The position numbers and the translations under genes are program-made. From Mucilaginibacter frigoritolerans (GTDB taxonomy: Bacteria > Bacteroidota > Bacteroidia > Sphingobacteriales > Sphingobacteriaceae), in contig NZ_VLLI01000001.1 of NCBI RefSeq assembly GCF_007830615.1, positions 671,276-735,275 of the forward strand: 64,000 nt of DNA, written 5' to 3'. Below are positions 31,478 through 62,412 of this stretch, one piece after another (positions within the stretch are counted from its first letter, which is position 1; every line of letters begins with the position of its first letter). The notes under the pieces are model-generated. The model had not been told where the DNA came from, made no database searches, and saw only the letters and a program-made list of their open reading frames with translations.

Positions 31478-31516
31478 TGTATCATAACCGTACACTTGTT
31501 GTAACAGAAGCGTACG
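31478..31516 (+). promoter_or_regulatory. Enhancer element A (two TGT-N11-ACA-type dyads) upstream of the adaptor gene
   Basis: A 39-bp element repeated at four places in the array. It is made of two 17-bp units starting at 31478 (TGTATCATAACCGTACA) and 31500 (TGTAACAGAAGCGTACG), 22 bp apart, so on the same DNA face. Shared positions are TGT at both unit starts and CGnAC at both unit ends. It lies 52 bp upstream of a TGGCATG element, a normal position for an NtrC-type enhancer. Confidence 0.8.
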
Positions 31517-31568
31517 CCTTATTTAGTTAAATGTGGTTTAATTTATTGAAATACAGTTATTTAATTTG

Positions 31569-31584
31569 TGGCATGTGTTTTTAT
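31569..31584 (+). promoter_or_regulatory. Sigma-54-like promoter A
   Basis: TGGCATGTGTTTTTAT. The -24 half (TGGCATG) is close to TGGCACG. The -12 half is TTTTAT and lacks the usual GC. The same arrangement follows each of the four enhancers. It is 46 bases upstream of the adaptor GTG. Confidence 0.55.
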
Positions 31585-31614
31585 AACTAACTATCAAAAT
31601 ATAAAACAACAACA

Positions 31615-32868
31615 GTGGACAGAATAATTGAAAAAAAGACCTGGAATACCAAAAGGATACTGACAATTGCCGGCATAACAGCCCTTGTTTTACTTATTGC
31701 CGGTGCCATTTACTCTACATCTGGCAAAAGTAAGCTTGATGTTGATACTGAACGTTTAACTATCAGCACAATAACAAAAGGACCGTTTCAGGAAAATATT
31801 CCGGTGAATGGTGTGGTAATGCCATTAACTACCATTTATCTGGATGCTACAGATGGGGGAAGAGTGGAACAAAAGTTTGTTGAAGACGGAGCTATACTTA
31901 AAGTAGGCGACCCTATTATAAAATTATCAAATACAGATCTTGAACTAAGATTGGCTGATGAGCAAACTGCTGTTTACAATGCCGAAACGCAAATGCAAAT
32001 ATCTCATAACGCTGCTCAACAAAACACCATCTCCAAACTTAATTCAATGGCTGATGTGGATGTTGCTTTTAAAGAAGCAGAACGAATTTATAAACTGGAT
32101 AAGGATTTATACAGCAAAAAGGCAATTGGATTGCAGGAATACCAAACTGCGGTTAATCAATATGATTATCAGTTAAAACGTAAAAAATTGGCCATGCAGA
32201 TTCTGGTGCAGGATACTACATTGGTAAAGCAACAAGCACAACAGGCACAAGAGCAATACGCTCAAATGAAACAGACATTGGATCTTTTGAAGAAAAAAGT
32301 GAACGATCTGACTGTAAAAGCACATGTTGCCGGCCAATTAACTTCATTTGATTCAGAGATTGGCCAGGATAAAAAAGCCGGTGATCCCTTAGGTCAAATT
32401 GACGTGCAGTCGGGCTTTAAGGTTAGGGTTAGTGTTGAAGAACATTACTTATCTAGGGTTTTTACGGGCTTAACAGGTGATTTTCAGTTTGCCGACAAAA
32501 CCTATAAACTGATTATAAAAAAGGTGTTTACGCAGGTAGCTAACGGTCAATTTCAGGTTGATATGGCTTTTGTTGGCCCTACACCAACAGGAATTAGAAA
32601 AGGACAGACTTTACAGGTAAGACTTTTCTTAAGTGACCCAACACAAGCGCTGTTATTGCCTAAGGGTGGATTTTTTCAGCAGACCGGTGGTAACTGGATA
32701 TTCAAAGTAAGTGATGACGGAAGTAAAGCTTACAAGGTTGATATCCAAATAAACAGGCAGAGTCCTGATTATTATGAATTAACATCTGGATTAAAAGAAG
32801 GAGATAAGGTAATTACATCCAGCTACGAAACCTATGGCGACATACAGGAGCTGGTATTAAAGAAGTGA
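31615..32868 (+). CDS. HlyD/MacA-like periplasmic adaptor (membrane fusion protein)
   Basis: 417 residues from a GTG start. One N-terminal membrane helix (about residues 14-36, TIAGITALVLLIAGAIYS) anchors it in the inner membrane. A split lipoyl domain (PVNGVVMPLTTIYLD with GRVEQKFVEDGAILKVGD, later HVAGQLTSFDSEIG) flanks a long alpha-helical hairpin (about 110-235) rich in Gln and Ala, followed by beta-barrel and membrane-proximal domains. It should bridge an ABC permease to a TolC-type channel. It is the first gene of the array, directly behind enhancer A and promoter A, and is followed by ATPase 1. It is the only adaptor in view for eleven permeases. Confidence 0.92.
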   Translation: MDRIIEKKTWNTKRILTIAGITALVLLIAGAIYSTSGKSKLDVDTERLTISTITKGPFQENIPVNGVVMPLTTIYLDATDGGRVEQKFVEDGAILKVGDPIIKLSNTDLELRLADEQTAVYNAETQMQISHNAAQQNTISKLNSMADVDVAFKEAERIYKLDKDLYSKKAIGLQEYQTAVNQYDYQLKRKKLAMQILVQDTTLVKQQAQQAQEQYAQMKQTLDLLKKKVNDLTVKAHVAGQLTSFDSEIGQDKKAGDPLGQIDVQSGFKVRVSVEEHYLSRVFTGLTGDFQFADKTYKLIIKKVFTQVANGQFQVDMAFVGPTPTGIRKGQTLQVRLFLSDPTQALLLPKGGFFQQTGGNWIFKVSDDGSKAYKVDIQINRQSPDYYELTSGLKEGDKVITSSYETYGDIQELVLKK

Positions 32869-32937
32869 CGCCAATAAACAAACTAATTAACTCAACTATA
32901 AACTAAAGAATAAATTACCCCATGCAACGGGACAATT

Positions 32938-32944
32938 AAGGAGG
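32938..32944 (+). promoter_or_regulatory. Strong Shine-Dalgarno sequence of ATPase 1
   Basis: AAGGAGG, a perfect Shine-Dalgarno heptamer, lies 5 bases before the ATG at 32950. Such sequences are rare in Bacteroidota and none of the neighbouring array genes has one as strong, so translation of this ATPase may be set apart from that of the permeases. Confidence 0.6.
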
Positions 32945-32949
32945 CACCA

Positions 32950-33627
32950 ATGATAAAAATTACAAATCTTGAAAAATTTTACCGTACAGAAGAGGTAGAA
33001 ACCATCGCTTTAAATAAGCTATCAATTGAAGTTAAAACAGGGGAGTTTGTGGCAATAATGGGCCCTTCAGGCTGTGGCAAATCAACCTTGCTTAATATTT
33101 TAGGTATGCTCGATGATCCGGATGAAGGTAGCTACGTTTTTAATGGAATTGAAGTAGCCCACTTTACTGAACGTAAACGTGCCGATCTGCGTAAGCACAA
33201 TATCGGCTTCGTATTTCAAAGCTTCAACCTTATTGATGAATTAACCGTATTTGAAAATGTGGAACTTCCGTTGATCTACACTGGTGTTCCATCATCTGAG
33301 AGGGTTAAGCGCGTTGAGGAAGTATTGGACAAGATGCAGATCATGCATCGCCGTAATCACTACCCGCAACAGTTATCTGGTGGTCAGCAACAGCGTGTTG
33401 CTATTGCAAGGGCTGTAGTTAACAAGCCTAAATTAATACTGGCGGATGAGCCCACCGGTAACCTGGATTCAAGCAACGGTAACGACGTGATGGAATTGTT
33501 AACTGATTTGAACGAACAGGGTACAACCATTATAATGGTTACACACTCTGAGCATGATGCCCGTTACAGCCACCGTATCATCCGTTTACTGGATGGACAA
33601 ACGGTAATGGAAAACATCATGATTTAA
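32950..33627 (+). CDS. ABC transporter ATP-binding protein 1 (MacB/LolD type)
   Basis: 225 residues, complete nucleotide-binding domain: Walker A GPSGCGKST (38-46), Q-loop Q90, signature LSGGQ (142-146), Walker B LILADE (162-167), D-loop NLDS (171-174) and switch H199. All catalytic residues are canonical. The FQSFNLIDELTVFENVELPL segment is typical of the LolD/MacB/FtsE group that powers FtsX-type permeases. It lacks a membrane part, so it must pair with the separate permeases P1-P11. Gap of 81 bases after the adaptor gene, with a strong Shine-Dalgarno. ATPase 2 at the far end of the array is its divergent paralogue. Confidence 0.95.
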   Translation: MIKITNLEKFYRTEEVETIALNKLSIEVKTGEFVAIMGPSGCGKSTLLNILGMLDDPDEGSYVFNGIEVAHFTERKRADLRKHNIGFVFQSFNLIDELTVFENVELPLIYTGVPSSERVKRVEEVLDKMQIMHRRNHYPQQLSGGQQQRVAIARAVVNKPKLILADEPTGNLDSSNGNDVMELLTDLNEQGTTIIMVTHSEHDARYSHRIIRLLDGQTVMENIMI

Positions 33628-33650
33628 ATGTTGAATAGTATTTAGCCATA

Positions 33651-33704
33651 AGTCCGAAGCTGCATAATTTCCCAATTAAAAATCAGCAACTAAGACTTCG
33701 GACT
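33651..33704. repeat. Inverted repeat between ATPase 1 and P1 (arm 9 bp)
   Basis: AGTCCGAAG (33651-33659) and CTTCGGACT (33696-33704) are perfect complements separated by 36 bases. The transcript could fold into a long-loop hairpin. No T-run follows on the plus strand, so it is not a classical terminator. First of three inverted repeats in this 223-base gap. Confidence 0.6.
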
Positions 33705-33739
33705 AAAAAATAGTTTATATAAGTTAATTAAGTGCCTCT

Positions 33740-33771
33740 GCTAACCCTCTCCAAAAAATGGAGAGGTTAGC
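33740..33771. repeat. Strong stem-loop between ATPase 1 and P1
   Basis: GCTAACCCTCTCC pairs with GGAGAGGTTAGC (12 pairs, one bulged C) around a 7-base A-rich loop. This is the most stable structure in the gap. The downstream sequence TTGAGTTG is only mildly T-rich, so it may pause or partially terminate transcription, or protect the 3' end of the adaptor-ATPase mRNA. It resembles small genome-dispersed hairpins. Confidence 0.6.
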
Positions 33772-33788
33772 TTGAGTTGAAATCTACT

Positions 33789-33803
33789 GCGATAAAATAT
33801 CGC
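33789..33803. repeat. Short hairpin just upstream of P1
   Basis: GCGATA and TATCGC form a 6-bp stem with a 3-base loop, followed by TCTGTTCTT. It is the third inverted repeat in the gap before P1 and could add to attenuation. Confidence 0.45.
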
Positions 33804-33850
33804 TCTGTTCTTATTGTAAGTATTTGATTATTAAAATAATATACATCGTC

Positions 33851-36259
33851 ATGATAAAAAACTATATCAAAACAGCTTACCGTAGCCTTTTAAAAAACAA
33901 GGGCTTTACCATTTTAAATGTGTTAGGGCTATCTGTCGGACTGGCTACCTGTTTGTTGATTGTTTTTTACGTGGTTGATGAATTAAGTTATGACCGATAT
34001 AACACTAAAGCCGGCAGAATTTACCGTATCTCTATCGATGCCAAGTTAAATGGAAACGCAGGTGTTTATGCTACATCAGAAGCTCCCTGGAAAAATATAT
34101 TGAAAAGCAGCTTTCCACAAGTGGAAAATGTAGCAAGGCTAATAGATAAAAATGGGCTGTTTCTATCGCCTCAAAAATTCTATGTTAAAAAGAATAATGG
34201 CAATATTTTGGAGCGCAATATTGTTTTTACAGAATCGTCATTATTTGATGTTTTTACACTGCCCATGATTGATGGCAATGCAGCACATGCCCTTGATGAA
34301 CCCAATACTGCGGTTATTACCGAAAGCACAGCAAAAAAATATTTTAATAAGGTTAATGTTACCGGACGTACATTAACTATAAATGATTCTAACACATTTA
34401 AAATAACGGGAGTAATAAAGGATATTCCTGCACAATCACAATTCCACTACGATTTTTTCTTATCATTTTCATCAAGACCCGAAAGTAAATCAAACAACTG
34501 GGGCTATGCAGGCTTACATACTTATTTGTTGTTAAAACCGGGTACCGATGTTGCTAAACTGGAAAAAGCACTTACCAATATTGATATAAAAAACTCCTAT
34601 AATCCATCCACCTGGACAACCGGCGATAATCATCTGCGTGTTTTTTTAAAGCCATTGGCTGATATCCACCTTCGGGACGCTGATGCTCAATATACTTTAG
34701 AGAAGAGTGGCAATATCCAGTATGTGTACATATTTCTGCTCGTTGCTATATTCATATTGCTAATAGCTTGTGTAAACTTCATGAACCTTTCAACCGCGCG
34801 TTCATCAAATCGCGCCAGGGAAGTTGGGGTACGTAAAGTATTAGGTTCGGCACGAAAATACCTGGTAGCTCAGTTTTTAACTGAATCGGTTTTAGTAACA
34901 TTTGTTTCTGCAGCTATAGCCCTCTTTTTAGCGTGGATGCTATTACCGTTATTTAATCAAATGGCTGATAAGCATCTGGAAATTACTCCACAAATTATTG
35001 CCTGGCTGTTACCTGCTTTACTGCTTGTAGTTTTGATAGTAGGCTTTTTGGCGGGTTCTTATCCGGCGTTTTATCTTTCATCATTTCAACCTATAGATGT
35101 ATTAAAAGGTAAAATTGCTGCTGGCTTTAAGGGTGGTTTTTTGAGAAGCTTTTTGGTGATTTTTCAGTTCGCTATCTCCATTTTTTTGATTATCGGCACC
35201 CTGGTAATTTATAACCAGCTCAATTATATCCGTAATAAGGATCTTGGTTTCGACCGCGACCAGGTACTGGTTATTAAAAATGCCAATACGCTGGGTAATC
35301 AGGCTAAAATTCTAAAAAATGACTTGAAACAGTTGCCTGGCGTAGCAAATGCTACTTTATCATCCTATCAACCAACAGGAGATGAAGACCTTAAAACTGG
35401 ATTATTTCCACATCGAAAAATTGATATTAAGGAAGATATATTAACTGAATTCTGGTCGGTAGATGAGGATTTTATTAATACTATGAATCTCAAACTAACC
35501 AATGGGCGTAATTTTTCGAAAGATATGTCCGGCGATACTGCCGGTATGATAGTTAACGAAGCGTTTGTCAGGAAGTTGGGACAACTGAACCCTTTGAATA
35601 AAGATGTTTATCGTTATAGCTATGGCTTACAGCAATACCACATTATAGGCGTGGTAAAGGATTTTAATTTTGCCTCTTTAAGGGATAACATCACGCCATT
35701 AGCCATGGTTTATGATTTTGACAACGGTGCAATCAGCGTAAAACTTCATTCAGCAAACCTAAGCGCTTTGATGGCGCAAATAGCAGGTAAATGGAAAGAA
35801 CTATCGCCTAATCAGCCATTCACTTATTCATTTATGGATCAGGATTTTGATGCTACTTATCGTACAGAGCAACGTTTTGGCTCAATGTTCATCTCATTCA
35901 GTACGTTAGCAATTATTATTGCCTGCTTGGGATTGTTTGGACTGGCTGCTTACGCTGCTGAACAGCGTACTAAAGAAATCGGCATCCGCAAAGTTTTGGG
36001 TGCAAATATCTCAACCATTGTGGCCATGCTTTCAATGGATTTTATTAAACTGGTATTCATCTCCATATTAATTGCAACACCAATTGCCTGGTGGGCTATG
36101 CAAAAATGGCTGCAGGATTTTGCCTATCGAACTACTATACAATGGTATATTTTGGCTGCAGCCGGAGCTACAGCAATTACAATAGCGTTTATTACTATTA
36201 GTTTTCAATCTATAAAAGCTGCATTGAGCAATCCGATAAATAGTTTAAGGAGTGAATAA
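33851..36259 (+). CDS. Double-FtsX ABC permease P1 (MacB-like)
   Basis: 802 residues from the ATG at 33851; an ATA/TTG-rich upstream extension to 33824 adds nine residues and is less likely. Layout: helix 1 near residues 20-42, periplasmic MacB-type domain to about 280, three helices, a fourth at about 425, a second periplasmic domain to about 665, and three final helices. Coupling-helix motifs are GVRKVLGSA (first half) and GIRKVLGAN (second half). It ends NPINSLRSE. Closest to P4: both share RSSNRAREVGVRKVLGSARK, although the codons differ a lot. No ATPase domain is fused, so it needs ATPase 1 or 2. First permease of the array. Confidence 0.93.
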   Translation: MIKNYIKTAYRSLLKNKGFTILNVLGLSVGLATCLLIVFYVVDELSYDRYNTKAGRIYRISIDAKLNGNAGVYATSEAPWKNILKSSFPQVENVARLIDKNGLFLSPQKFYVKKNNGNILERNIVFTESSLFDVFTLPMIDGNAAHALDEPNTAVITESTAKKYFNKVNVTGRTLTINDSNTFKITGVIKDIPAQSQFHYDFFLSFSSRPESKSNNWGYAGLHTYLLLKPGTDVAKLEKALTNIDIKNSYNPSTWTTGDNHLRVFLKPLADIHLRDADAQYTLEKSGNIQYVYIFLLVAIFILLIACVNFMNLSTARSSNRAREVGVRKVLGSARKYLVAQFLTESVLVTFVSAAIALFLAWMLLPLFNQMADKHLEITPQIIAWLLPALLLVVLIVGFLAGSYPAFYLSSFQPIDVLKGKIAAGFKGGFLRSFLVIFQFAISIFLIIGTLVIYNQLNYIRNKDLGFDRDQVLVIKNANTLGNQAKILKNDLKQLPGVANATLSSYQPTGDEDLKTGLFPHRKIDIKEDILTEFWSVDEDFINTMNLKLTNGRNFSKDMSGDTAGMIVNEAFVRKLGQLNPLNKDVYRYSYGLQQYHIIGVVKDFNFASLRDNITPLAMVYDFDNGAISVKLHSANLSALMAQIAGKWKELSPNQPFTYSFMDQDFDATYRTEQRFGSMFISFSTLAIIIACLGLFGLAAYAAEQRTKEIGIRKVLGANISTIVAMLSMDFIKLVFISILIATPIAWWAMQKWLQDFAYRTTIQWYILAAAGATAITIAFITISFQSIKAALSNPINSLRSE

Positions 36260-36261
36260 AT

Positions 36262-38619
36262 ATGTTAAGGAACTATGTAATTATTACATTCAGAAACATC
36301 AGGCGTAACCTTAGTTATGCCTTTTTGAATGTTTTTGGCCTTACTTTAGGTATTGCCTCCTGTTTGGTTATATTTCTTATTGTTAGAAATGAGCTTAACT
36401 ATGATGATTATAGCAAGGCTGATCGTATTTACAGGGTAACTCTTAACGCCATTGATTTTAATTCAAATGTTGCATTGGCCGTTGCCCCGGCGATGCGAAA
36501 CGACTTTCCGGAGCTAGAGCAGGTGTCGCAGGTAATGTATAGTCATGAAGTAATGATTAAAGTAAATAATAATCATTTTCGCGAAAACGATTTTGCTTTT
36601 ACTGATGAACATTTTCCTGCAATATTCAACCTCCGCTGGATTAGCGGTGATCCCAAAACTGCACTTAAAGAACCCAATAGCATTGTCATTACAGAAAGCA
36701 TTGCTAAAAAATATTATGGTGATAAGAACCCAATGGGTGAGATTATTAATTTAGAGAATGAGATCAATGTTAAGGTAACAGGTGTTATACAAGATCTTCC
36801 GGGTAACAGAAGCTTACCGCTAAAGATGTTCGTATCAATTGAAACGATCAAGAATCAGTTAAAAAACCAGATGTCAAATTTTTGGAATATTGGTGGTGGT
36901 TATTTTACTTTTATTTTGCTCCCGCAGCATTATTCTATACAACGAATTCAACATAAAATACCTGCATTTCTTCATAAAAACTGGAACCTTGATCCTAAAG
37001 AGGTTAGACTGCCACTTCAACCACTAAAAGACATTCATTTTGATCAGCGTTATATCAATAATATTGTAACACCAACTTCAAAGGATACCTATTATGCCCT
37101 GTTTGGGGTAGCATTGCTTATTATTATTACTGCATGTATTAATTTTATTAACCTGGCCACCGCACAGGCCATAAAAAGAGCTAAAGAAGTTGGCGTGCGC
37201 AAAGTTTTAGGAGCGCACCGGTCACAATTGGTTAAACAATTTATGGGCGAAACAACAGTACTGATATTAATTGCCCTTGTTTTAGGTGTTGGTATTGCTG
37301 CCACTTTTTTATCACAAGCCGGTACCTGGTTAAATGTAAAAATTGATGCAAGTGAGTTGGCACAGCCGCTGGTAATAGGTGTTATAGCTGCATTAACTAT
37401 TTTGGTTATATTACTGGCAGGCTTGTATCCTGCTTTTGTTCAATCGGCTTATCGACCCATTGATTCATTAAAAAACCAAACAGGGACACCTTCAAAAGGC
37501 TTCACACTGCGGAAGGGTCTGGTAGTGGCTCAGTTTGCCATATCGCAGATACTGATTGTGGGCACATTGGTTGTGGCGCACCAAATGGATTTTTTTGAAA
37601 ATCAGGATTTGGGCTTTAATAAAGATGCTATTATCTCGTTCTATGTCCCCAATAATGCAAAGAAGGATGTTTTAGAGCACGCTTTGAGCAATAACCCCGA
37701 TGTAAAACAAATTGCGTTTTCGAGCGGAGCTCCATCATACAATAATAATTTCGCAGGCTTTAGCGCTCCAGATCATGGTGTAATTAAAGATGACGTAACC
37801 GAAATGAAGTTTGTTGATGAAAACTATATTAATATGTTCGGTTTAAAGATGCTGGCGGGGCAAAAAGTAAATAAAGCTAATCCAAAAGATACAGTTCAGA
37901 ACATTGTAGCCAACGAAACACTGATTCATAAATTGAGTATTATGGATCCCGAAAAAGCAGTTGGACAGCGCATTGTTTTGAATGGCCGACCGGCAAACAT
38001 TATTGGCGTAGTACAGGATTTTCAAAGCGAATCAAAACATAAAAAAAGGCGAGCTTGTGTATTAATGTATTATGCTGATGCATTTTTTATGGCTAATGTG
38101 AAGTTGCAACCAAGAGCAATGAGTAATACTATTGATGATATTAATAAAACATGGACAGCGTTATTTCCTGATAATTTATTTGAGTACCAGTTTTTGGATG
38201 AGCATATCGCGTCATTCTATACACAAGAACAAAAAGTTTATACTGCTTTTAAGCTTTTCTCATCAATAGCTATATTAATTGGATGTTTAGGATTATACGG
38301 ACTGATTTCATTTGCAGCCGCCCAACGTACCCGTGAAGTTGGTATCCGTAAAGTATTGGGCGCTCCGCTAATTAGCATAGTCGGCTTGTTTTCGAAAGAG
38401 TTTATCCTGCTTATTTCTATAGCGTTCTTTATTGCTGCTCCAATTGGTTATTATGCCATGCATAACTGGCTACAGAATTATGCTTACCATATCAACATTG
38501 GAGTTGGTACATTCTTAATTGCAATAGCAGCATCATTCATAATAGCAGCCATTACCATATCCTATCAAACAATAAAAGCAGCACTGGTTAATCCGGTTAA
38601 CAGTTTAAGAAACGAATAA
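36262..38619 (+). CDS. Double-FtsX ABC permease P2 (MacB-like)
   Basis: 785 residues; the ATG is 2 bases after the P1 stop, and the end of P1 supplies an AAGGAG. The usual two-half layout with coupling motifs GVRKVLGAH and GIRKVLGAP; ends NPVNSLRNE, the only permease with Asn before the last Glu. The mid-protein helix FAISQILIVGTLVVAHQMDF and the following SSGAPSYNNNFAGF place it with P9 (FAISQLLIIGTIVAVNQMDF, SSDAPSSDNN), forming a second subfamily. Periplasmic domains are about 240 and 220 residues. The substrate is unknown. Confidence 0.93.
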   Translation: MLRNYVIITFRNIRRNLSYAFLNVFGLTLGIASCLVIFLIVRNELNYDDYSKADRIYRVTLNAIDFNSNVALAVAPAMRNDFPELEQVSQVMYSHEVMIKVNNNHFRENDFAFTDEHFPAIFNLRWISGDPKTALKEPNSIVITESIAKKYYGDKNPMGEIINLENEINVKVTGVIQDLPGNRSLPLKMFVSIETIKNQLKNQMSNFWNIGGGYFTFILLPQHYSIQRIQHKIPAFLHKNWNLDPKEVRLPLQPLKDIHFDQRYINNIVTPTSKDTYYALFGVALLIIITACINFINLATAQAIKRAKEVGVRKVLGAHRSQLVKQFMGETTVLILIALVLGVGIAATFLSQAGTWLNVKIDASELAQPLVIGVIAALTILVILLAGLYPAFVQSAYRPIDSLKNQTGTPSKGFTLRKGLVVAQFAISQILIVGTLVVAHQMDFFENQDLGFNKDAIISFYVPNNAKKDVLEHALSNNPDVKQIAFSSGAPSYNNNFAGFSAPDHGVIKDDVTEMKFVDENYINMFGLKMLAGQKVNKANPKDTVQNIVANETLIHKLSIMDPEKAVGQRIVLNGRPANIIGVVQDFQSESKHKKRRACVLMYYADAFFMANVKLQPRAMSNTIDDINKTWTALFPDNLFEYQFLDEHIASFYTQEQKVYTAFKLFSSIAILIGCLGLYGLISFAAAQRTREVGIRKVLGAPLISIVGLFSKEFILLISIAFFIAAPIGYYAMHNWLQNYAYHINIGVGTFLIAIAASFIIAAITISYQTIKAALVNPVNSLRNE

Positions 38620-38634
38620 ATAACCATAGTAGAA

Positions 38635-41022: not shown

Positions 41023-41055
41023 TTTAAACAAATAATATTACTAAACTAAAATATC

Positions 41056-43479: not shown

Positions 43480-43565
43480 TCTGCTAACTAAAATATTTAA
43501 CTGATGCAACCTAAATACTAAAATACTACTCTTATTAAAGTTGATATTAAATTAAATTTTTATTT

Positions 43566-45932: not shown

Positions 45933-46024
45933 GTTATTCATCATTTTTGAAAAACAACTTTACGGACAGCTAAACTATTTACCAGCGAGTTGAGTAATAT
46001 TTTATTTAAGTGTAATAATACAAC

Positions 46025-48415: not shown

Positions 48416-48520
48416 TTAACCTGCCAGCAACTTTTTTATTAATAACAATATTTTTCGATTAGATGCAACGCAACGAATAAATGGCGTGTCTATTATATAA
48501 ACTAAATAAAATATAAAGAG

Positions 48521-49561
48521 ATGAAAAAGTATTTATTGCTGTTATTTATCGCCTGCCAAAGCTCTGTTCTTTTAGCGCAGGATTGGAATAAAACCCCTTA
48601 CGAAACTAAATCGCTATCAAGTGACGCCATAAAAGATGTTTATGTAGAAACTTCAGGTGGCAGTATTGCTGTTAGCGGTGCAGCCGGCGAAGCACCACGA
48701 GTTGACGTTTTTGTACATGGTAACAATAACCAGGAGCTTTCTAAAGACGAAATTAAAAAAAGACTGGATGAAGATTATAAGCTGGAAATTTCGGTAAGCA
48801 ACCATGAACTGCATGTTTTAGCAAAAAGAAAACATGATGGTGGGATTAACTGGGATTGGAGAAGACAATTGAGTATTTCTTTTAAAATATATGTACCTAA
48901 AAATGTGGATACTCATTTAGGAACCAGTGGTGGCAGTATTCATCTTGACAATTTATCAGGTAATGAAAACTTTAGCACCAGTGGTGGCAGTTTACATGTA
49001 GATGCTTTAACAGGATTAATTAAAGGAGAAACATCAGGCGGTAGCATTGAAGTGTCTAATTCAGGTAATGATATTAACCTGGAAACCAGCGGAGGTAGCA
49101 TCCACGCCAGCAATTGCCACGGAAAAATAAAGTTAGAAACCTCTGGCGGTTCATTACATCTTGATGATTTGAAAGGATCAATAAATGCAAATACCAGCGG
49201 CGGCAGCATTCAGGCCAATAGCATTGAAGGCGAATTAATTACAGGTACTTCTGGCGGCAGTGTCAATTTAACAAGAATGGCCTGCAGCCTTGAAGCTTCA
49301 ACAAGCGGTGGTAGCATGCATGTAGATATGGATCAGGTAGGCAAATATGTAAAATTAGACGTTAGCGGTGGCCACGTCGACTTAAAATTGCCTGCAAATG
49401 TTGGAATGAACCTGAATCTTTCTGCTGATAAAATAAATTCAGTATCAGTAAAAAACTTTAGCGGCGAGTGGGAAAAAACACATATTAAAGGAAGTATAAA
49501 CGGTGGTGGCATTCCAGTTAATGTTGACGCCAGCGGCAGTCTTAATCTGACCTTTAATTAA
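48521..49561 (+). CDS. DUF4097 protein with an 18-residue TSGGS beta-solenoid, exported
   Basis: 346 residues. A signal peptide ends near LLAQ (residue 20). An N-terminal region includes one isolated TSGGS (44-48). From residue 135 there are eight TSGGS motifs at exactly 18-residue intervals (135, 153, 171, 189, 207, 225, 243, 261) and a relaxed ninth (VSGGH near 281), each followed by a short beta segment such as IHLDNL or LHVDAL. This is the pattern of a right-handed beta-solenoid. DUF4097 proteins are called putative adhesins or stress-linked envelope proteins; the role is unknown. It ends the first array unit directly before a strong terminator. It may be cargo, a scaffold, or an envelope sensor for the system. 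Confidence 0.88.
   Translation: MKKYLLLLFIACQSSVLLAQDWNKTPYETKSLSSDAIKDVYVETSGGSIAVSGAAGEAPRVDVFVHGNNNQELSKDEIKKRLDEDYKLEISVSNHELHVLAKRKHDGGINWDWRRQLSISFKIYVPKNVDTHLGTSGGSIHLDNLSGNENFSTSGGSLHVDALTGLIKGETSGGSIEVSNSGNDINLETSGGSIHASNCHGKIKLETSGGSLHLDDLKGSINANTSGGSIQANSIEGELITGTSGGSVNLTRMACSLEASTSGGSMHVDMDQVGKYVKLDVSGGHVDLKLPANVGMNLNLSADKINSVSVKNFSGEWEKTHIKGSINGGGIPVNVDASGSLNLTFN
48923..49354 (+). repeat. Eight tandem 54-bp coding repeats in the DUF4097 gene
   Basis: Eight units of 54 bp, each beginning with the codons for TSGGS. The first codons vary (acc agt ggt, aca tca ggc, acc agc gga), so the repeat is kept at the protein level while the DNA has diverged. This argues for an old array held by selection, not recent slippage. 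Confidence 0.85.
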
Positions 49562-49589
49562 CAGAATAAATAAGATTTTCATTTAGGGT

Positions 49590-49646
49590 AAGCGGTACTC
49601 CTGGTTCTTTTAGCGTAAAGAACTCTGGAGGCCGCTTTTTATTTTT
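49590..49646 (+). terminator. Strong terminator at the end of array unit 1
   Basis: AAGCGG pairs with CCGCTT, CTCC with GGAG and GTTCTTT with AAAGAAC around a short TAGCGT loop, followed by a T-rich tail. It lies 29 bases after the DUF4097 stop and separates unit 1 from the P7-P8 unit, whose enhancer begins 88 bases later. Confidence 0.85.
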
Positions 49647-49733
49647 GATATATTATCCAAATACTAGACTTTCTATTTATATAACTCTAAATAAGCCATC
49701 CTAATGCGCATGGTTATCACTATCAAAAGCTAG

Positions 49734-49772
49734 TGTATCATAATCGAACACAAGGTGTTACGACATCGGACA
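49734..49772 (+). promoter_or_regulatory. Enhancer element B upstream of P7
   Basis: Second copy of the 39-bp element. Units start at 49734 (TGTATCATAATCGAACA) and 49756 (TGTTACGACATCGGACA), again 22 bp apart, each TGT-N11-ACA. It lies 52 bp upstream of promoter B. The rest of this 303-base gap is the unit 1 terminator and AT-rich DNA. Confidence 0.8.
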
Positions 49773-49824
49773 GTTTTAATTGTGGTTCTATCTTAATTAA
49801 TTGATTATTAGTTTGTTAATTGTT

Positions 49825-49841
49825 TGGTATGGGTTTTAAAT
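49825..49841 (+). promoter_or_regulatory. Sigma-54-like promoter B
   Basis: TGGTATGGGTTTTAAAT: conserved TGG(C/T)ATG -24 half, then a T-rich -12 half without GC. It is 40 bases before the P7 ATG, the same offset as promoter C to P9. Confidence 0.55.
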
Positions 49842-49864
49842 ATACAATCTGAAAATATATAAAC

Positions 49865-52288: not shown

Positions 52289-52319
52289 TAAAATATATTC
52301 GATAATAAATAATAAAGCC

Positions 52320-54755: not shown

Positions 54756-54785
54756 CTTATTTATATCTGATCGATATATAATAAC

Positions 54786-54824
54786 TGTATCGAAACCGAA
54801 CAATTAGTGTGTCACTTACGAACA
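54786..54824 (+). promoter_or_regulatory. Enhancer element C upstream of P9
   Basis: Third copy of the 39-bp element, the most diverged. Units start at 54786 (TGTATCGAAACCGAACA) and 54808 (TGTGTCACTTACGAACA), 22 bp apart. TGT and CGnAC positions are kept in both. It lies 54 bp upstream of promoter C. Confidence 0.75.
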
Positions 54825-54878
54825 TATTCGTAAATTAATTTTTTTTATAATTTATTGATTGTCAACTAAATATTAGTT

Positions 54879-54894
54879 TGGTATGCATTTGGAT
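54879..54894 (+). promoter_or_regulatory. Sigma-54-like promoter C
   Basis: TGGTATGCATTTGGAT: -24 half TGGTATG, -12 half TTGGAT. It is 40 bases upstream of the P9 ATG. The second G of TTGG falls where the G of the -12 GC is expected. Confidence 0.55.
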
Positions 54895-54918
54895 TTCTTA
54901 TAATAAGAAAATAACATT

Positions 54919-57339
54919 ATGATAAAGAATTACTTTAAAATCGCCTGGCGCAATATTATTCGCCATAAAATATATTCGGTTATCAATATAGCCGGACTAA
55001 CTGTAGGTATAGCCGCATGCCTGCTCATTTTTACAATTATAAGGTATGAGTTAAGTTTTGATATTTTTCAGCCCAATTATAAAAATATCTATCATATTGT
55101 TACTGAACAAAAGAGCGAAAGTGGTATTGATTATAATCCAGGGGTTGCCGTACCAGCCACTGAAGCATTGAGGCTGGAATTTCCGAAAGCAAAAGTAGCA
55201 TCAATAAATTCCAGCTATGGGAGTCAGATAACTGTAAACGATGGAAGTGACCTGAAATACAATGGTGGCAAAAAGTTTACTGAAAATATAGGAGTAGTTT
55301 TTATTGAACCTCAGTTTTTTGACATTTTCAGTTGGAAATGGTTGGCAGGTAATGCTGCTGTTTTGGCAAACCCTAACATGGTTGTTTTAGATAAAACTAC
55401 TGCTACAAAATACTTTGGCAACTGGACAAAGGCTGTGGGGAAATCCATTACAATGGACAATTTGGTCAATTTGAAAGTAGCGGGAATAATTGAGGATGCA
55501 CCCAGCAATAGCGATTTACCGTTTAAAGTTCTGATATCTCATATCACCTGGAAAAACTACGCGAGTGTATATAATTATTCAGAAGGTTGGGGGCTACTAA
55601 GTAGTAGTCACCAGATATTTATGCTTTTCCCTGACCATACCACTCAAAATGATATTGATAAACAGTTAAAAAGGGTAACCATTAAATATTATAAATCAGG
55701 ACTAAAAGATCACCTTATTATCTCACAACCATTATCAATAATGCATTTTGATACCAGGTTTGGTGATAATTTAGGAGATCATATCACTACTAATGCAACG
55801 CTGCGTACCTTATCATTTATTGCCATTCTGATTATTATAATGGCGTCCATCAATTTTATCAATTTGTCAACCGCACAATCTGTCGGACGGTCAAAAGAAG
55901 TAGGTATCCGTAAAGTATTGGGTAGCAGTAGGAAGCAATTAGCTATTCAGGTAATTGGTGAAACTGCGCTTATTGTAATAGGTGCTGTAATTTTGGCTAC
56001 CATAGTTGCCAAAATCAGCTTACCTTATTTAAAAAATATTGCCAGTGTACCTGATGATATAAGCCTGATAAATGGTGGTAGTATTATTTTTTTAACGCTT
56101 ACCACACTTGTTGTAATTATCCTGTCTGGTATTTACCCTGCGCTTATAGTTTCTGGTTTTAAACCGGTTTTGGCTCTTAAAAATAAAATTACTGCTGCAT
56201 CAATCGGTGGTATTTCATTACGTCGAACACTTGTAATAACGCAATTTGCCATATCCCAGCTATTAATTATTGGTACAATAGTAGCTGTTAATCAAATGGA
56301 TTTTGTAAACAAAGCCGATCTGGGTTTTAACAAAAATGCTGTACTGATGCTTCCCGGATATACCGATAGTATCAGTCTAAAAAAAATGCAATCGTTTAAA
56401 CAACAGCTATTGCAAAATCCAGCTGTACAGTCTGTCAGTTTTACTTCTGATGCACCATCATCTGATAATAACTCAGCCAGTAACTTTTATTTTAATCATT
56501 CGGAAAAGGAGATTGGTTTTTCAACATTTATGAAAATTGGGGACGCTGATTATTTTAAAACATTTGGCCTGCGTTTTACCGCAGGTACGGGATATGATGT
56601 TAGTGATACTATGCGCCAGGTAGTTGTAAACCAAACATTGCTGCGTAAACTCGGTATTCAGCATGACGATTATGCTGTTGGCAAAACCCTCAGAATGGGA
56701 ACTGGGGTATGGGCAACAATAACAGGGGTTGTTGAAGATTTTAAAACTAATTCATTGCGTGAAGCGGTAAAACCTATTATTATTTTCCCATCAAAAAAAT
56801 ATGAGTCGCTGGCTGCCGTCAAATTAAAATCTAATAATCTTGTAAAGACTGTTGCCGGTATTCAATCATTATGGGAAAACACTTATCCCGAATATGCTTA
56901 CAATGGATTTTTCCTTGATGAAAACATTGCAAAGTTTTATAAACAAGAAAATCAGATGGCCTTAGTTTACAAAATATTTGCCTTTATAGCCATTTTTATT
57001 TCCTGCCTTGGGCTGTACGGACTGGTATCATTTATGGCCATTCAAAGAACAAAAGAAGTAGGCGTTCGCAAGGTTTTGGGAGCTTCGGTAAGCAGTATTG
57101 TATACTTGTTTTCAAAAGAATTTATGGCATTAATTCTTATATCATGTTTAATTGCCATACCTGCAGCATATTATATAATGAATGGATGGCTGCAGCATTT
57201 TGCATACCGGGTTTCTTTAAACATTTGGGTTTTTGTAGCTGCTATTGCAGTATCTGTGGTAATAGCCTGGTTAACCGTTGGCTATAAAGCGATGAAAGCA
57301 GCTTTAGTTAACCCTGTGAAAAGCTTAAAAAGTGAGTGA
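54919..57339 (+). CDS. Double-FtsX ABC permease P9 (MacB-like)
   Basis: 806 residues, first gene of the third unit. Coupling motifs GIRKVLGSS (first) and GVRKVLGAS (second, within TKEVGVRK). It groups with P2 by its mid helix (FAISQLLIIGTIVAVNQMDF), by SSDAPSSDNN and by KEVG instead of KEIG in the second half. Ends NPVKSLKSE. The first periplasmic domain contains a long GVDYNP-like insertion (ESGIDYNPGVAVPATEALRL). It is followed by P10 after 70 bases. Confidence 0.93.
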   Translation: MIKNYFKIAWRNIIRHKIYSVINIAGLTVGIAACLLIFTIIRYELSFDIFQPNYKNIYHIVTEQKSESGIDYNPGVAVPATEALRLEFPKAKVASINSSYGSQITVNDGSDLKYNGGKKFTENIGVVFIEPQFFDIFSWKWLAGNAAVLANPNMVVLDKTTATKYFGNWTKAVGKSITMDNLVNLKVAGIIEDAPSNSDLPFKVLISHITWKNYASVYNYSEGWGLLSSSHQIFMLFPDHTTQNDIDKQLKRVTIKYYKSGLKDHLIISQPLSIMHFDTRFGDNLGDHITTNATLRTLSFIAILIIIMASINFINLSTAQSVGRSKEVGIRKVLGSSRKQLAIQVIGETALIVIGAVILATIVAKISLPYLKNIASVPDDISLINGGSIIFLTLTTLVVIILSGIYPALIVSGFKPVLALKNKITAASIGGISLRRTLVITQFAISQLLIIGTIVAVNQMDFVNKADLGFNKNAVLMLPGYTDSISLKKMQSFKQQLLQNPAVQSVSFTSDAPSSDNNSASNFYFNHSEKEIGFSTFMKIGDADYFKTFGLRFTAGTGYDVSDTMRQVVVNQTLLRKLGIQHDDYAVGKTLRMGTGVWATITGVVEDFKTNSLREAVKPIIIFPSKKYESLAAVKLKSNNLVKTVAGIQSLWENTYPEYAYNGFFLDENIAKFYKQENQMALVYKIFAFIAIFISCLGLYGLVSFMAIQRTKEVGVRKVLGASVSSIVYLFSKEFMALILISCLIAIPAAYYIMNGWLQHFAYRVSLNIWVFVAAIAVSVVIAWLTVGYKAMKAALVNPVKSLKSE

Positions 57340-57409
57340 GTTTAGTGATTGTGGGGGTATTAGTTGAGCTTATATAGTAGAAATCTATTAAATCAATAAA
57401 CTAATTGTC

Positions 57410-59776
57410 ATGATAAAGAATTACATCAAAACTGCTTTACGTAGCTTATTTAAAAACAGAGCATTCAGTTTTTTAAATATTGCAGGTTTGGCAATAGGTG
57501 TAGCTTGTGCGTCGCTCATATTTTTATGGGTGCAAGATGAGCTTAGCTATAATCACAACTTTGAGAAGCACAATAGTGTGTATACGATTTACGAAAATCA
57601 AACCTACGAGGGTAAGATCAGTACTTTTCATGCCACTCCAGGGCCAATGGCAAAAGTGTTAAAAGCAGAAATACCAGGCATAAAAACTGCAGCAAGGACC
57701 ACCGGAGGTGATGGTGATGAGCTTTTTGCCCTTGGTGATAAAATAATAACTGAAAAAGGGCGCTTTGCTGATCCCGAAATATTTTCAATCCTTAAACTGC
57801 CTTTTGTAAGCGGGAATGCTACAAATCCATTTCAGCAATTACATTCTGTTGTGATTAATGAAACAATGGCGAAAAAGTTTTTTGGTGATATAAACCCTAT
57901 CGGTAAAACATTAAAAGTAAATAATGAGCAGGAATATACGGTTACGGCGGTTTTTAAAAATCTCCCAAAAAACTCAAGCTTTCAGTTTCAATGGCTGGCG
58001 CCCATGGCCAACATTGACCATAAACAACCCTGGATGAATATTTGGGGAGCCAACTGGACCCGTACTTTTATTGAGTTGGAACCATCAGCAAATTTGACTT
58101 CCGTTAATCAGAAATTGCAACATTTTATTGCTGATAAAACAAAAAAGACTAACACCACCGTTTGTTTCCTTTTTGCAATGAACGATTGGAATCTTCGCGA
58201 TAATTTTGTTGATGGCAGGATGAGTGGGGGACGTATACAGTACGTAAATATATTTTCATTTATAGCGGTCATAATTTTATTAATTGCCTGCATCAACTTT
58301 ATGAATCTTTCAACTGCACGTTCCGAGCAAAGAGCTAAAGAAGTTGGGGTGCGTAAGGTTGTGGGGGCTGGTAAAGGTAAATTGATAGGTCAGTTTATCA
58401 GCGAGGCTGTAATTATGGCATTTATCGCAGTATTGGTTGCCATCGGGCTAATTTATGCAGCAATGCCGTCTTTTAATAACCTGGTTCAAAAAGATTTAGG
58501 TGTAGACATTGTTGCGCCTGCTCATCTAGCTTATTTGATAGGAATAGCCGTAATAACCGGTTTACTTGCTGGTAGTTACCCTGCATTCTATCTTTCATCT
58601 TTTAATCCGATAGCTGTTTTAAAAAATATAAAAATAAAATCAGCTTCAGGCACAGGCCTTATCCGGCAAAGTTTGGTAGTAATGCAGTTTTCTGTATCTA
58701 TTGTATTGATAATAGGAACCATTATTATCTACCAGCAAATTCAGCATATAAAGAGCAGGCAATTAGGCTTTAATAAAAGCAATCTGATTTACATCAATCT
58801 ACAAGGCAAACAAGTTGATCAATTCACCACTGTATATAATGACCTGAAGCAAACAGGTGTTGTTGCAGATGCCGCATTGAGTGATAATCCGGCTTTGCAA
58901 ATCGGTAGTAACACCGACAATTATTCGTGGGATGGAAAAGACCCTGTTAAAAATCCACTAATCTCCTGGCAAAATGTAAGTCCGCAGTTTTTATCAACTA
59001 TGGATATGAAGCTTTTAGCCGGAAGAGATTTTTATAATGAAGCTGCTTTAGATAGTAACAACGTAATTATTAACGAAGCTTTTGCAAAGCAAATGGGTAA
59101 AGAGGGACGAATTGGGGGGATTATAAGAGATGGCAGCAAAAAAGCATTAGCCATAACAGGTATTGTTAAAGATTTTCTTTACAACGATATGTATGCAAGT
59201 GCTGCTCCGCTTTTACTTTATTGCCATCCCGCCGGTACTAGTGTTTTAAGCATACGTTTTAAAAATGGAACTAACTTACAGGATGCTCTTATAAAAACAG
59301 GAGCTGTTATAAAAGCTGATAGCCCTGGATATTCATTCGAATATCAATTTATTGATGATGATTTTAATCAGCTATTTAAAACGGAAACATTAACAGCGAT
59401 GCTAGCAGGCGTATTTGCTTCCTTAGCCATATTTATTTCGTGTTTGGGTTTATTTGGCCTTGCAGCATACACGGCCGAACGTAGAATCAAAGAAATTGGC
59501 ATACGTAAAGTTCTCGGTGCTTCTGTATCTGGTTTGGCCGGTTTATTATCAAAAGACTTTTTGAAACTTGTAGGCCTGTCATGCATTATCGCTTTTCCTG
59601 TTGCCTGGTTTTTTATTAACAATTGGTTGCAAAGTTACCAATATAGGGTAACCATTAATTGGTGGGTATTTATAATATCGGGTGTTTTAGCTATGGCGAT
59701 TGCTTTAACTACGGTAAGTTTTCAAGCTATTAAAGCAGCCTTAATGAACCCGGTTAGAAGTTTACGCAGCGAGTAA
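57410..59776 (+). CDS. Double-FtsX ABC permease P10 (MacB-like)
   Basis: 788 residues. Coupling motifs GVRKVVGAG (first) and GIRKVLGAS (second). The first-half block is INFMNLSTARSEQRAKEVGV, close to that of P5. The mid helix reads FSVSIVLIIGTIIIYQQIQH. Ends NPVRSLRSE. The first periplasmic domain is slightly shorter and has a Trp-rich stretch (QPWMNIWGANWTRTFIELEP) that P11 also shows (TNWGGNWLNTYLELAP). P10 and P11 may therefore handle related cargo. Same unit as P9. Confidence 0.93.
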   Translation: MIKNYIKTALRSLFKNRAFSFLNIAGLAIGVACASLIFLWVQDELSYNHNFEKHNSVYTIYENQTYEGKISTFHATPGPMAKVLKAEIPGIKTAARTTGGDGDELFALGDKIITEKGRFADPEIFSILKLPFVSGNATNPFQQLHSVVINETMAKKFFGDINPIGKTLKVNNEQEYTVTAVFKNLPKNSSFQFQWLAPMANIDHKQPWMNIWGANWTRTFIELEPSANLTSVNQKLQHFIADKTKKTNTTVCFLFAMNDWNLRDNFVDGRMSGGRIQYVNIFSFIAVIILLIACINFMNLSTARSEQRAKEVGVRKVVGAGKGKLIGQFISEAVIMAFIAVLVAIGLIYAAMPSFNNLVQKDLGVDIVAPAHLAYLIGIAVITGLLAGSYPAFYLSSFNPIAVLKNIKIKSASGTGLIRQSLVVMQFSVSIVLIIGTIIIYQQIQHIKSRQLGFNKSNLIYINLQGKQVDQFTTVYNDLKQTGVVADAALSDNPALQIGSNTDNYSWDGKDPVKNPLISWQNVSPQFLSTMDMKLLAGRDFYNEAALDSNNVIINEAFAKQMGKEGRIGGIIRDGSKKALAITGIVKDFLYNDMYASAAPLLLYCHPAGTSVLSIRFKNGTNLQDALIKTGAVIKADSPGYSFEYQFIDDDFNQLFKTETLTAMLAGVFASLAIFISCLGLFGLAAYTAERRIKEIGIRKVLGASVSGLAGLLSKDFLKLVGLSCIIAFPVAWFFINNWLQSYQYRVTINWWVFIISGVLAMAIALTTVSFQAIKAALMNPVRSLRSE

Positions 59777-59822
59777 TAATAAATTGATAGTATTAAGCGC
59801 AAATAACTCAATTACCTGAAAA

Positions 59823-62222
59823 ATGATTAAAAACTATTTAAAAATTGCCTGGCGTAACATTTGGAAAAACAAGGTTTTTTCGGCAATTAATATCATTGGT
59901 TTATCCGTAGGGATGGCAGCCTGTATTGTTATTATGCTGTTTGTGTCATATGAAAAAAGCTTCGATAATTTCCATACGAAAAATATCTATCGTTTAAATG
60001 AGGTGCAGACGGTTGGCAGCCAGGGAACCACACAAAAGGTAGCACTATCCATGTTCCCAATGGGAGCAACATTAAAACAAGAATTTCCTGAGATAAAAAA
60101 CTTTACACGAATACATTGGGGCGAGAAATATCAACTAACTCTTGAAAAGAAGAAAATATTCCTGCCGCAGATATTTTTTGTTGATTCCACTTTCCTCAGA
60201 ATGTTTGATTTTAAGGTAATTCGTGGTGATAGAGAAACAGCATTGTTAAAGCCACATACTGCGATGCTTACTGAGGAAACTGCTAAGAAGCTATTTGGTG
60301 ATGCTGACCCAATCGGTAAGACCATAACTCATTATGGCGATGATACTACTTCTTTTATAGTTACCGGTATTATGGCTAATGTGCCTAAAAACTCGCAGCT
60401 GCAATTTGACGCATTGTTTTCCTTTAGCAGTGTGTACAAGCCGTGGATGTTTACCAATTGGGGTGGTAATTGGTTAAATACTTACCTGGAACTTGCCCCA
60501 GGCACAAATCCTACATTACTGGATAAAAAATTCCCTGCCTACCTGAAAAAATATTTGAAGGGTGATGGCTGGAAATTTTTACAACTATTTGTTTTGCCAC
60601 TGAAGGACATACATGCTAATTCAGCTGATATCGGACTTGATTATATTAATTATCAAAAATTTGATAAAAAATCAACCAACTTATTTGCCATTATTGCACT
60701 TATAGTGCTGATAATTGCCTGTGTTAATTTTGTTAATCTTTCCACTGCCAGATCGGCTGAAAGAGCCAAAGAAGTAGGCATCAGAAAGTCTATTGGGGCA
60801 TATCGGTTTCAGTTAGCCATTCAGTTTATTGGTGAAACTATTCTGATTGCTTTTATGGCATTAATAATCGCTATTGCCTTGGTTGAACTGGCAATTCCTT
60901 ACATAAACAATCTGAGCGAAAGAGATATCTCGTTTAATATATTCAATAGTGTTTATCCTTTATTAATTGTTTTGGGCGGCACTGTTGTTATTGGTCTATT
61001 ATCTGGCATTTATCCTGCTCTCTATTTATCATCATTCAATCCTGTTAGGGTTTTAAAGGGATCAATAAAGGTAGGTAAAGACAAAGGGTCACTTAGAAAT
61101 ATTCTGGTTATTACACAATTTTCAAGTGCCATTTTTCTGATGATAGCGACTGTTTTTGTATTAAAGCAGTTAAATTTTATGCAAAAACAGGATCCTGGTT
61201 ACAATCGCGATCAAATTGTTAATATACCTCTGGATGGTGTCACCACCAAAAAATACGATCTATTTAAAAAAGAATTATCAGGCAGTACTTTGATAGCAGG
61301 GGTTACGGCATCACAGGATATTTTGGGAAGCCATCTGGATCAAACAGGAGTAACATTCAGGCCAGCTAACGGTCCGAAAGAAGACCTCGGCACAACGCTG
61401 TTAGTCGTGGATACCAATTATCTCGATTTGTATAAAATCAAATTGGTTGCCGGTAAAGACTTCTCGGGCGATAAAATGCCGGACGGCAGTCAGTTTATTG
61501 TTAATGAAGCATTGGCTAAAGAACTATTAAAAGATCATCCTAAAGCGCCACTATCATCATTGGTGGGACAGCGATTTGGATTTGATTCATTGGGTACTAT
61601 CACTGGTGTGGCAAAAAACTTCAATTTTAACTCATTACAATATAAAATAGAACCCATGTTTATGGTGAGCGCTAGGCATTGGGGATTTAGGAATATATCT
61701 GTTAAAATAAATGGCAGTAATACTGCAGCGGCACTTGCCCTCATTAAATCTAAATGGGATAGTATTTACCCTGATTATCCTTTTGAGTACCAGTTTTTGG
61801 ATGACCATTTTAATGAAGTTTATAAAGCAGATAACCAGGTAAGCAAAATTGTAGGCATCCTCGCCGGCTTGGCCATTTTTATATCCTGTTTAGGCTTATT
61901 TGGTTTGGCATCCCATTCTGCCGAAAGAAGAGTAAAAGAAATAGGTGTACGAAAGGTATTAGGTGCCTCAGTTCAAAATATAACTTTACTGCTATCGGGT
62001 AATTTTCTCAAACTGGTGCTGTTCGCTAATTTGATAGCATGGCCCATCGCCTGGTTTTCAGTGTACAAATGGCTCCAGGACTTTGCCTATCATATTAATG
62101 TTCAGTGGTGGATATTCATTGTATCTGGTATTGTATCCATATTGATAGCCTTTTTTACGGTCAGCTTTCAATCCATTAAGGCAGCAATTACTAACCCCGT
62201 TGAGAGTTTAAGGAGTGAATGA
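59823..62222 (+). CDS. Double-FtsX ABC permease P11 (MacB-like)
   Basis: 799 residues, 46 bases after P10, last permease of the array. Coupling motifs GIRKSIGAY (first, diverged) and GVRKVLGAS (second). The first-half block is VNFVNLSTARSAERAKEVGI. The mid helix is FSSAIFLMIATVFVLKQLNF. Ends NPVESLRSE. The Trp-rich periplasmic stretch TNWGGNWLNTYLELAP parallels P10. The transcript is followed by a 12-bp inverted repeat that may end the unit. Confidence 0.93.
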   Translation: MIKNYLKIAWRNIWKNKVFSAINIIGLSVGMAACIVIMLFVSYEKSFDNFHTKNIYRLNEVQTVGSQGTTQKVALSMFPMGATLKQEFPEIKNFTRIHWGEKYQLTLEKKKIFLPQIFFVDSTFLRMFDFKVIRGDRETALLKPHTAMLTEETAKKLFGDADPIGKTITHYGDDTTSFIVTGIMANVPKNSQLQFDALFSFSSVYKPWMFTNWGGNWLNTYLELAPGTNPTLLDKKFPAYLKKYLKGDGWKFLQLFVLPLKDIHANSADIGLDYINYQKFDKKSTNLFAIIALIVLIIACVNFVNLSTARSAERAKEVGIRKSIGAYRFQLAIQFIGETILIAFMALIIAIALVELAIPYINNLSERDISFNIFNSVYPLLIVLGGTVVIGLLSGIYPALYLSSFNPVRVLKGSIKVGKDKGSLRNILVITQFSSAIFLMIATVFVLKQLNFMQKQDPGYNRDQIVNIPLDGVTTKKYDLFKKELSGSTLIAGVTASQDILGSHLDQTGVTFRPANGPKEDLGTTLLVVDTNYLDLYKIKLVAGKDFSGDKMPDGSQFIVNEALAKELLKDHPKAPLSSLVGQRFGFDSLGTITGVAKNFNFNSLQYKIEPMFMVSARHWGFRNISVKINGSNTAAALALIKSKWDSIYPDYPFEYQFLDDHFNEVYKADNQVSKIVGILAGLAIFISCLGLFGLASHSAERRVKEIGVRKVLGASVQNITLLLSGNFLKLVLFANLIAWPIAWFSVYKWLQDFAYHINVQWWIFIVSGIVSILIAFFTVSFQSIKAAITNPVESLRSE

Positions 62223-62230
62223 TAGTAATT

Positions 62231-62291
62231 AGAGATTAGTTGGCTAGCGATTAGGTGTAGTATATTCTATATCTGTATTCAACTAATCTCT
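62231..62291. repeat. 12-bp perfect inverted repeat after P11
   Basis: AGAGATTAGTTG (62231-62242) and CAACTAATCTCT (62280-62291) are perfect complements with a 37-base loop. It lies 8 bases after the P11 stop. There is no T-run, so it may be a 3'-end-stabilising or processing structure. Its design (perfect arms, loop of about 36 bases) recalls the repeat at 33651-33704. Confidence 0.6.
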
Positions 62292-62319
62292 ATATTCCAG
62301 TCTCAGGTTACTAATCAAT

Positions 62320-62358
62320 TGTATCATAATCGTACGCTTCCTGTTACATAAGCGAACA
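62320..62358 (+). promoter_or_regulatory. Enhancer element D upstream of ATPase 2
   Basis: Fourth copy of the 39-bp element. Units start at 62320 (TGTATCATAATCGTACG) and 62342 (TGTTACATAAGCGAACA), 22 bp apart. It is the copy most like element A. It lies 54 bp upstream of promoter D. Confidence 0.8.
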
Positions 62359-62412
62359 GTAATTGCTTAGTGTTTTATTTGTAAGTATCTGATATTTAAT
62401 TAGTTGGTACTT

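Follow-up and report, generated by a model that had tools for sequence, protein, structure and literature searches.

The export array of Mucilaginibacter frigoritolerans very probably forms one pump regulon, in which the neighbouring NtrC-type regulator, acting on tandem 39-bp sites and via an IHF-like bend, would open sigma-54 polymerase at TGGYAY promoters. In the window, which is the whole 64,000-nucleotide stretch of DNA analysed, and at the comparable loci of other genomes, element, palindrome and promoter stand in a fixed order and at a fixed spacing ahead of transporter genes (Table 1). The promoters read TGGYAY-N4-TT, one base shorter than the canonical N5.

The tandem elements, the export array and the neighbouring regulator

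In each 39-bp element a 17-bp unit, TGTnnC-N5-CGnAC(A/G), occurs twice; in all four elements the second unit starts 22 bp after the first, and CGnAC is present in 8 of 8 units. The first-pass annotation had reported four 39-mers with this register and a fixed CGnAC, and the coordinates, the register and CGnAC are confirmed. It had also given the unit form as TGT-N11-ACA, which stands for six of the eight units but not for the two that end in ACG (31500-31516 and 62320-62336), so that the form becomes TGT-N11-AC(A/G). The units are only partly palindromic, and in 167 distinct sites no third unit was found at a further 22 bp on either side of the pair. When the pattern TGTNNCNNNNNCGNACR-N5-TGTNNCNNNNNCGNACR was searched with up to three mismatches, only the four elements matched in the window (shuffle mean 0.03). 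Across the full 5.66-Mb genome no other match is free of mismatches, and the check on motif abundance thus confines exact matches to the array. At up to three mismatches the genome yields 7 matches as against 7 for a reversed control pattern; weak matches by themselves therefore mean nothing.

Table 1. Features of the window, with positions counted from its first nucleotide.
Feature	Positions	Strand	Remarks
Histidine kinase, likely partner of regulator	28500..29852	-	HATPase domain; H-box HEIMNS
NtrC-type response regulator, candidate binder	29842..31197	-	receiver, sigma-54 AAA+ domain, Fis-type HTH
39-bp tandem element 1	31478..31516	+	ahead of HlyD-type adaptor, in the gap common with the divergent regulator
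IHF-like palindrome 1	31539..31563	+	13/17 positions
Predicted sigma-54-type promoter 1	31569..31582	+	TGGCAT-N4-TT
HlyD-type adaptor	31615..32868	+	domain match
ABC ATPase 1	32950..33627	+	domain match
Permeases P1-P6	33824..48415	+	each two MacB_PCD and two FtsX stretches
DUF4097 protein	48521..49561	+	domain match
39-bp tandem element 2	49734..49772	+	ahead of permease P7
IHF-like palindrome 2	49794..49818	+	15/17 positions
Predicted sigma-54-type promoter 2	49825..49838	+	TGGTAT-N4-TT
Permeases P7-P8	49865..54755	+	MacB_PCD / FtsX stretches
39-bp tandem element 3	54786..54824	+	ahead of permease P9
IHF-like palindrome 3	54848..54872	+	15/17 positions
Predicted sigma-54-type promoter 3	54879..54892	+	TGGTAT-N4-TTG
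Permeases P9-P11	54919..62222	+	MacB_PCD / FtsX stretches
39-bp tandem element 4	62320..62358	+	ahead of ATPase 2
IHF-like palindrome 4	62382..62406	+	14/17 positions
Predicted sigma-54-type promoter 4	62413..62426	+	TGGTAT-N4-TTG
ABC ATPase 2	62531..63208	+	domain match
TolC-type outer membrane efflux protein	63235..64000	+	continues beyond window end

Four similar copies within one array might represent a dispersed repeat or belong to an RNA leader. Pairs of elements, however, have 24-31 of 39 bases in common while the 39-bp stretches flanking them share 8-18, a low likeness which argues that the elements are not copies of a longer repeat. The elements also lie upstream of predicted promoters, the window contains no Rfam match, and across genera the letters of the element are kept at fixed positions only, all of which makes a repeat or leader extremely unlikely.

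All four elements precede transporter genes, the adaptor, P7, P9 and ATPase 2, as had been noted. The array is accordingly predicted to divide into adaptor-ATPase 1-P1 to P6-DUF4097, P7-P8, P9 to P11, and ATPase 2-TolC. Terminator matches between 48300 and 64000 are no more numerous than in shuffled sequence (9 versus a mean of 11.8), and the borders of these units therefore depend on the elements alone. By Pfam, two MacB_PCD and two FtsX stretches are found in 11 of 11 permeases; for P1 and P7, scores with TIGR03434, a model of duplicated permeases, and with the darobactin permease model stay below the cut-offs. The DUF4097 protein inside the array is LiaG-like, with a match below cut-off. 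The regulon probably has at least one member unlinked to the array, a permease behind a degraded fifth copy. This two-mismatch element at C1:127390, approximately 575 kb off the array, has TGGCAT 53 bp downstream and is a weak match made credible by its context. Relatives of this permease locus in two other genomes (G025 and G028; 69 and 68% identical) are arranged alike.

The receiver, Sigma54_activat and Fis-type HTH domains of the regulator all score above Pfam cut-offs, and the genome yields a single rpoN match alongside seven strong sigma-54 activators. AtoC / ZraR-type NCBIfam equivalogs match the regulator strongly, yet every listed score falls below the curated cut-off, and the regulator is therefore none of those named proteins. 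It has the same domain order as AtoC / ZraR-type response regulators; unlike them, it carries GAYTDA in place of the GAFTGA loop, which the accessible part of one study calls invariant (PMC12316311). A D at this place is usual in the clade of the regulator, being found in 94 of 98 frames of at least 57% identity, as counted in overlapping loci. Element-bearing regulators have the recognition helix TR(T/A)ALYRRL, and that of the relatives examined is TR(A/T)SLYRR. The helix Ala also occurs without an adjacent element in G147 and G061, and in a 42% paralog that has a different site; the pairing of helix and element is thus a correlation across few lineages. Inspected by eye, relatives of 48-53% identity stand beside other dyads, of the types TGTTTC/GAAAC, TGTGTC/GAGAC and TGTCCG/CGGACA, some of them 22 bp apart (L259, L261 and L262 in G037; L258 in G050), which hints at a recognition code.

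Co-occurrence of the element and the regulator

In a set of 60 genomes that includes the genome itself, the element is present at up to one mismatch in 30 of 36 genus mates and in none of the 23 genomes from other families; with the reversed control pattern, all 60 together give 1 match. Orthologs of the regulator (at least 78% identity) occur in 31 of 36 genus relatives, the one in G012 being cut by a contig end, and all 31 carry the element: 29 at the 22-bp register, and G033 and G012 with a 4-bp linker. No credible element was found in the five genus relatives without the regulator (G007, G009, G023, G029 and G036), of which G009 is a 58% complete genome and G007 has a sole match with one mismatch and no promoter or transporter behind it. 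The association of regulator ortholog and element within the genus is strong (Fisher 2.7e-6, counting related genomes, which are non-independent events).

A similar association extends across the phylum. Among 395 Bacteroidota genomes the exact element occurs in 10, all of them within the 22 that carry the regulator at 58% identity or more (hypergeometric 2.8e-14, or 1.9e-6 with the genus left out, both uncorrected for kinship). The stretch beside the regulator was checked in 22 plus 8 of 41 matching genomes. In the 22, a clear element (at least 16 of 18 positions) adjoins the regulator in 16, one whose first unit is degraded (14 of 18 positions) and which has a promoter at 53 bp adjoins it in 3, and no adjacent element was found in the remaining 3 (G147, G061 and G375), in which a variable-linker pattern is also missing elsewhere; G375, with a best score of 14 of 18 and no promoter in place, was counted as having none. 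A TGTATC-anchored form of the element is present in at least 119 stretches of a species collection. The 80 listed titles are all from Bacteroidota and include Mucilaginibacter, Arcticibacter, Hufsiella, Chitinophagaceae, several Flavobacteriaceae and Hymenobacter.

From the loci, 209 distinct sites were gathered, 193 exact and 16 with one mismatch, with the overlapping-copy loci L001-L007 and L011-L039 left out. Because the collection required the pattern, the register and the core letters are partly ascertained, and related genomes are among the sites. The gene after the site is an adaptor in 83, a permease in 80, an ATPase in 30, a DUF4097 gene in 3, all at other loci than the window, and another gene in 9, and lies off the contig in 4; transporter genes (adaptor, ATPase or MacB/FtsX permease) are thus downstream of 193 of 209. 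Among the 83 adaptor-type sites, 74 have a homolog of the regulator divergent from the element; among the 113 other classified sites, of which 28 are at contig edges, only 1 does.

A different DNA-binding protein might occupy the element, the co-occurrence then being shared inheritance of the array. The genome does encode six further strong sigma-54 activators, and array and regulator are inherited together; we nevertheless consider this very unlikely, since only the neighbouring regulator diverges from the element and the two have been lost together within the genus. In addition, regulator relatives of 52-56% identity, in the 8 of 19 genomes examined, have best scores of 12-13 and no credible element. 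Taken together, the earlier proposal that the divergent regulator and the four elements would form a single regulon passes the comparative tests, namely co-occurrence in the genus and in the 395 genomes, placement, and a fixed -24-like element, and a pattern-based scan of the genome and its genus relatives finds the element again where a regulator ortholog is present.

The IHF-like palindrome and the short -24/-12 spacer

Downstream of elements 1-4, TGG(C/T)AT begins after 52, 52, 54 and 54 bp, in agreement with the 52-54 bp first described, and a second TGGTAC at 62405 precedes the TGGTAT of promoter 4 (62413). Promoters were counted only where a transporter or DUF4097 gene and no less than 120 nt follow the site, which gave 178 distinct 39-mers from the 209 sites. 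In 167 of these 178, TGGYAY, the -24 element of a canonical sigma-54 promoter, starts 50-54 bp behind the element; the distance is 60-62 bp in 3 and 45 bp in one, and 7 lack TGGYAY. Approximately 0.003 per site would be expected by chance. Start codons lie at a median of 47 bases after TGG (120 sites, approximate), which fits a transcription start approximately 24 bases after TGG.

The consensus of IHF is WATCAANNNNTTR. When the gap between element and promoter is aligned on TGG, its strongly conserved columns form a palindrome, YAAN4TTGATWATCAAN4TTR, in which this consensus adjoins its own reverse complement; the palindromic form was written as an extension of the consensus once the columns had been seen. 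The palindrome scores at least 12 of 17 in 165 of 171 promoters, in 163 of these 30-31 bases before TGG; in shuffles, 6.5 of 171 promoters reach that score on average and 12 at most. An IHF-type site, as judged by sequence match, is thus located between the activator site and the promoter. Palindrome position was compared at 18 loci, of which three gave no value, one had its best score off position and one scored 11 on position. In G128, G441 and L173, with 62 bp separating element and TGG, the palindrome is still 31 bases before TGG, and the extra stretch of roughly one helical turn falls between element and palindrome. No clear compensatory change between the palindrome arms was found. The genome has one PF00216 match for the HU/IHF family, and a single such gene would be in keeping with a homodimer bound to a symmetric site. 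In a separate scan of the genome with an IHF half-site plus TGGYAY at up to one mismatch, 39 matches were obtained versus 14 for the reversed pattern; some matches, such as G000:C4:53227 and G000:C4:232183 (L344 and L345), could be additional sigma-54 promoters.

The best control, within the genus, comes from a paralog of the regulator (41-43% identity) that lies in an HlyD / ATPase / permease operon. Among 15 stretches upstream of the paralog, 13 contain TGGTA(T/C)-N5-TTGCA, one contains nothing and one meets a contig border. A TGTCCG-type site ends 50-51 bp before TGG in these promoters, and the palindrome, in whose consensus they had no part, scores at least 12 of 17 in 13 of 13, at -29. 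In these 13 promoters, from as many genus mates (L284-L289 and L292-L298), a single TGTCCGATATCGGACA-type site, the canonical N5-TTGCA box and the IHF-like palindrome are all present. The paralog thus keeps N5 at about the same site-to-promoter distance, which indicates that the short spacer is peculiar to the element-bearing regulon.

Behind TGGYAY, TT is found at N4 in 157 of 171 promoters, and a TTGC-type -12 box at N5 is not the rule; the -12 box is weak. The canonical -24/-12 spacing could be kept and the -12 box merely worn, with the shifted TT a T-rich accident. T-runs do permit both registers in 90 of 171 promoters, and a G stands at the N4 register in only about a quarter, which leaves this reading a serious contender, albeit one that we believe will probably prove wrong. 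TT is exclusively at N4 in 67 promoters and exclusively at N5 in 8, YTG favours N4 by 44 to 2 and TTGC by 5 to 0, and the 13 promoters of the paralog retain N5-TTGCA. On these counts, a sigma-54 that accepts or prefers the short spacer is somewhat more likely than a worn -12 box. The idea that the GAYTDA/GAFTDA loop goes with the short spacer was considered and rejected, as GAFTDA relatives have N5 promoters and the D-less regulators L075, L093, L152 and L129 adjoin N4 promoters. In a genus scan with TTGGCACG-N2-5-TTGC, the canonical N4 looks much rarer than N2, N3 or N5 among the matches listed (four, by eye, in matches not restricted to promoters); this scarcity may reflect selection against stray promoters or an effect of codon phase.

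The promoters might alternatively not be of the sigma-54 type, and the element might recruit another form of RNA polymerase by direct contact at a fixed distance. Rigid distances are seen with contact activators, and the -12 box deviates; even so, we find this very unlikely, slightly more so than a different binder, in view of the sigma-54 AAA+ domain of the regulator (E = 5e-66), the match of TGG-A by TGGCAC in 32 of 167 promoters, and the paralog, whose nearly equal element distance goes with a canonical sigma-54 box.

Proposed mechanism and relation to known systems

We propose that the NtrC-type regulator would assemble on the tandem 39-bp activating sites and reach over a DNA bend, which an HU/IHF-type protein would impose on the palindrome. 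Sigma-54 RNA polymerase would then be opened at the TGGYAY promoter despite its short -24/-12 spacer, so that adaptor, ATPases and permeases would be switched on together as one regulon, with a kinase signal presumably setting the switch. A rigid distance is unusual for an enhancer, yet it would be expected of a geometry fixed by the bend, and we suggest such a fixed bend between activator and polymerase as its reason. An activator site, a bend and a sigma-54 promoter make up a known kind of module; the short spacer, if functional, is surprising. More tentatively, at somewhat less than even confidence, Bacteroidota may possess a hard-wired class of sigma-54 promoters that breaks the strict -24/-12 rule, in which a tandem site, a symmetric bend site for an HU/IHF homodimer and a spacer one base short act as a rigid machine that is kept phylum-wide for pump arrays, alongside canonical promoters in the same genus.

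With the element and a candidate regulator, a large group of Bacteroidota export pumps that has received little study gains a searchable operator. In the accessible part of one account (PMC5505868), the -24/-12 spacing is called strict in all sigma-54 promoters, a rule that the present natural promoters, with a same-genus control, would bring into question. Among the papers listed for the regulator, the site or the spacer in the open literature, with subscription papers outside the coverage, only one study is directly relevant. It predicts sigma-54 control of FtsX-like permease genes in Bacteroidia, as here, and its available text claims this as first evidence (PMC12316311). That text leaves the activator or site for these permeases unnamed, and its Bacteroidia consensus, TGGCAC-N5-7-TTGCT, excludes the N4 seen here.

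Promoters of the nifH / NtrC type have upstream activator sites, an IHF site in between and a GG-type -24 element. The system described here has activator sites, an IHF-like site between and the GG-type -24 in common with them; unlike them, it has a rigid distance between element and promoter, a symmetric IHF-like palindrome and a -24/-12 spacing one base short. A further comparison is provided by CbrB of Pseudomonas, whose subsites, as far as the accessible parts of two reports describe them, start with TGTTAC or end with GTAACA, are partly palindromic or non-palindromic, lie 20-25 bp apart on one helix face and involve IHF (PMC6296734, PMC8871633). Like these, the present sites are several, partly palindromic and at about the same spacing, with an IHF-type involvement that is here a sequence match. 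In contrast to the CbrB subsites, which those reports present as loosely spaced and of low conservation, the 22-bp register is held nearly throughout and the core letters are kept phylum-wide.
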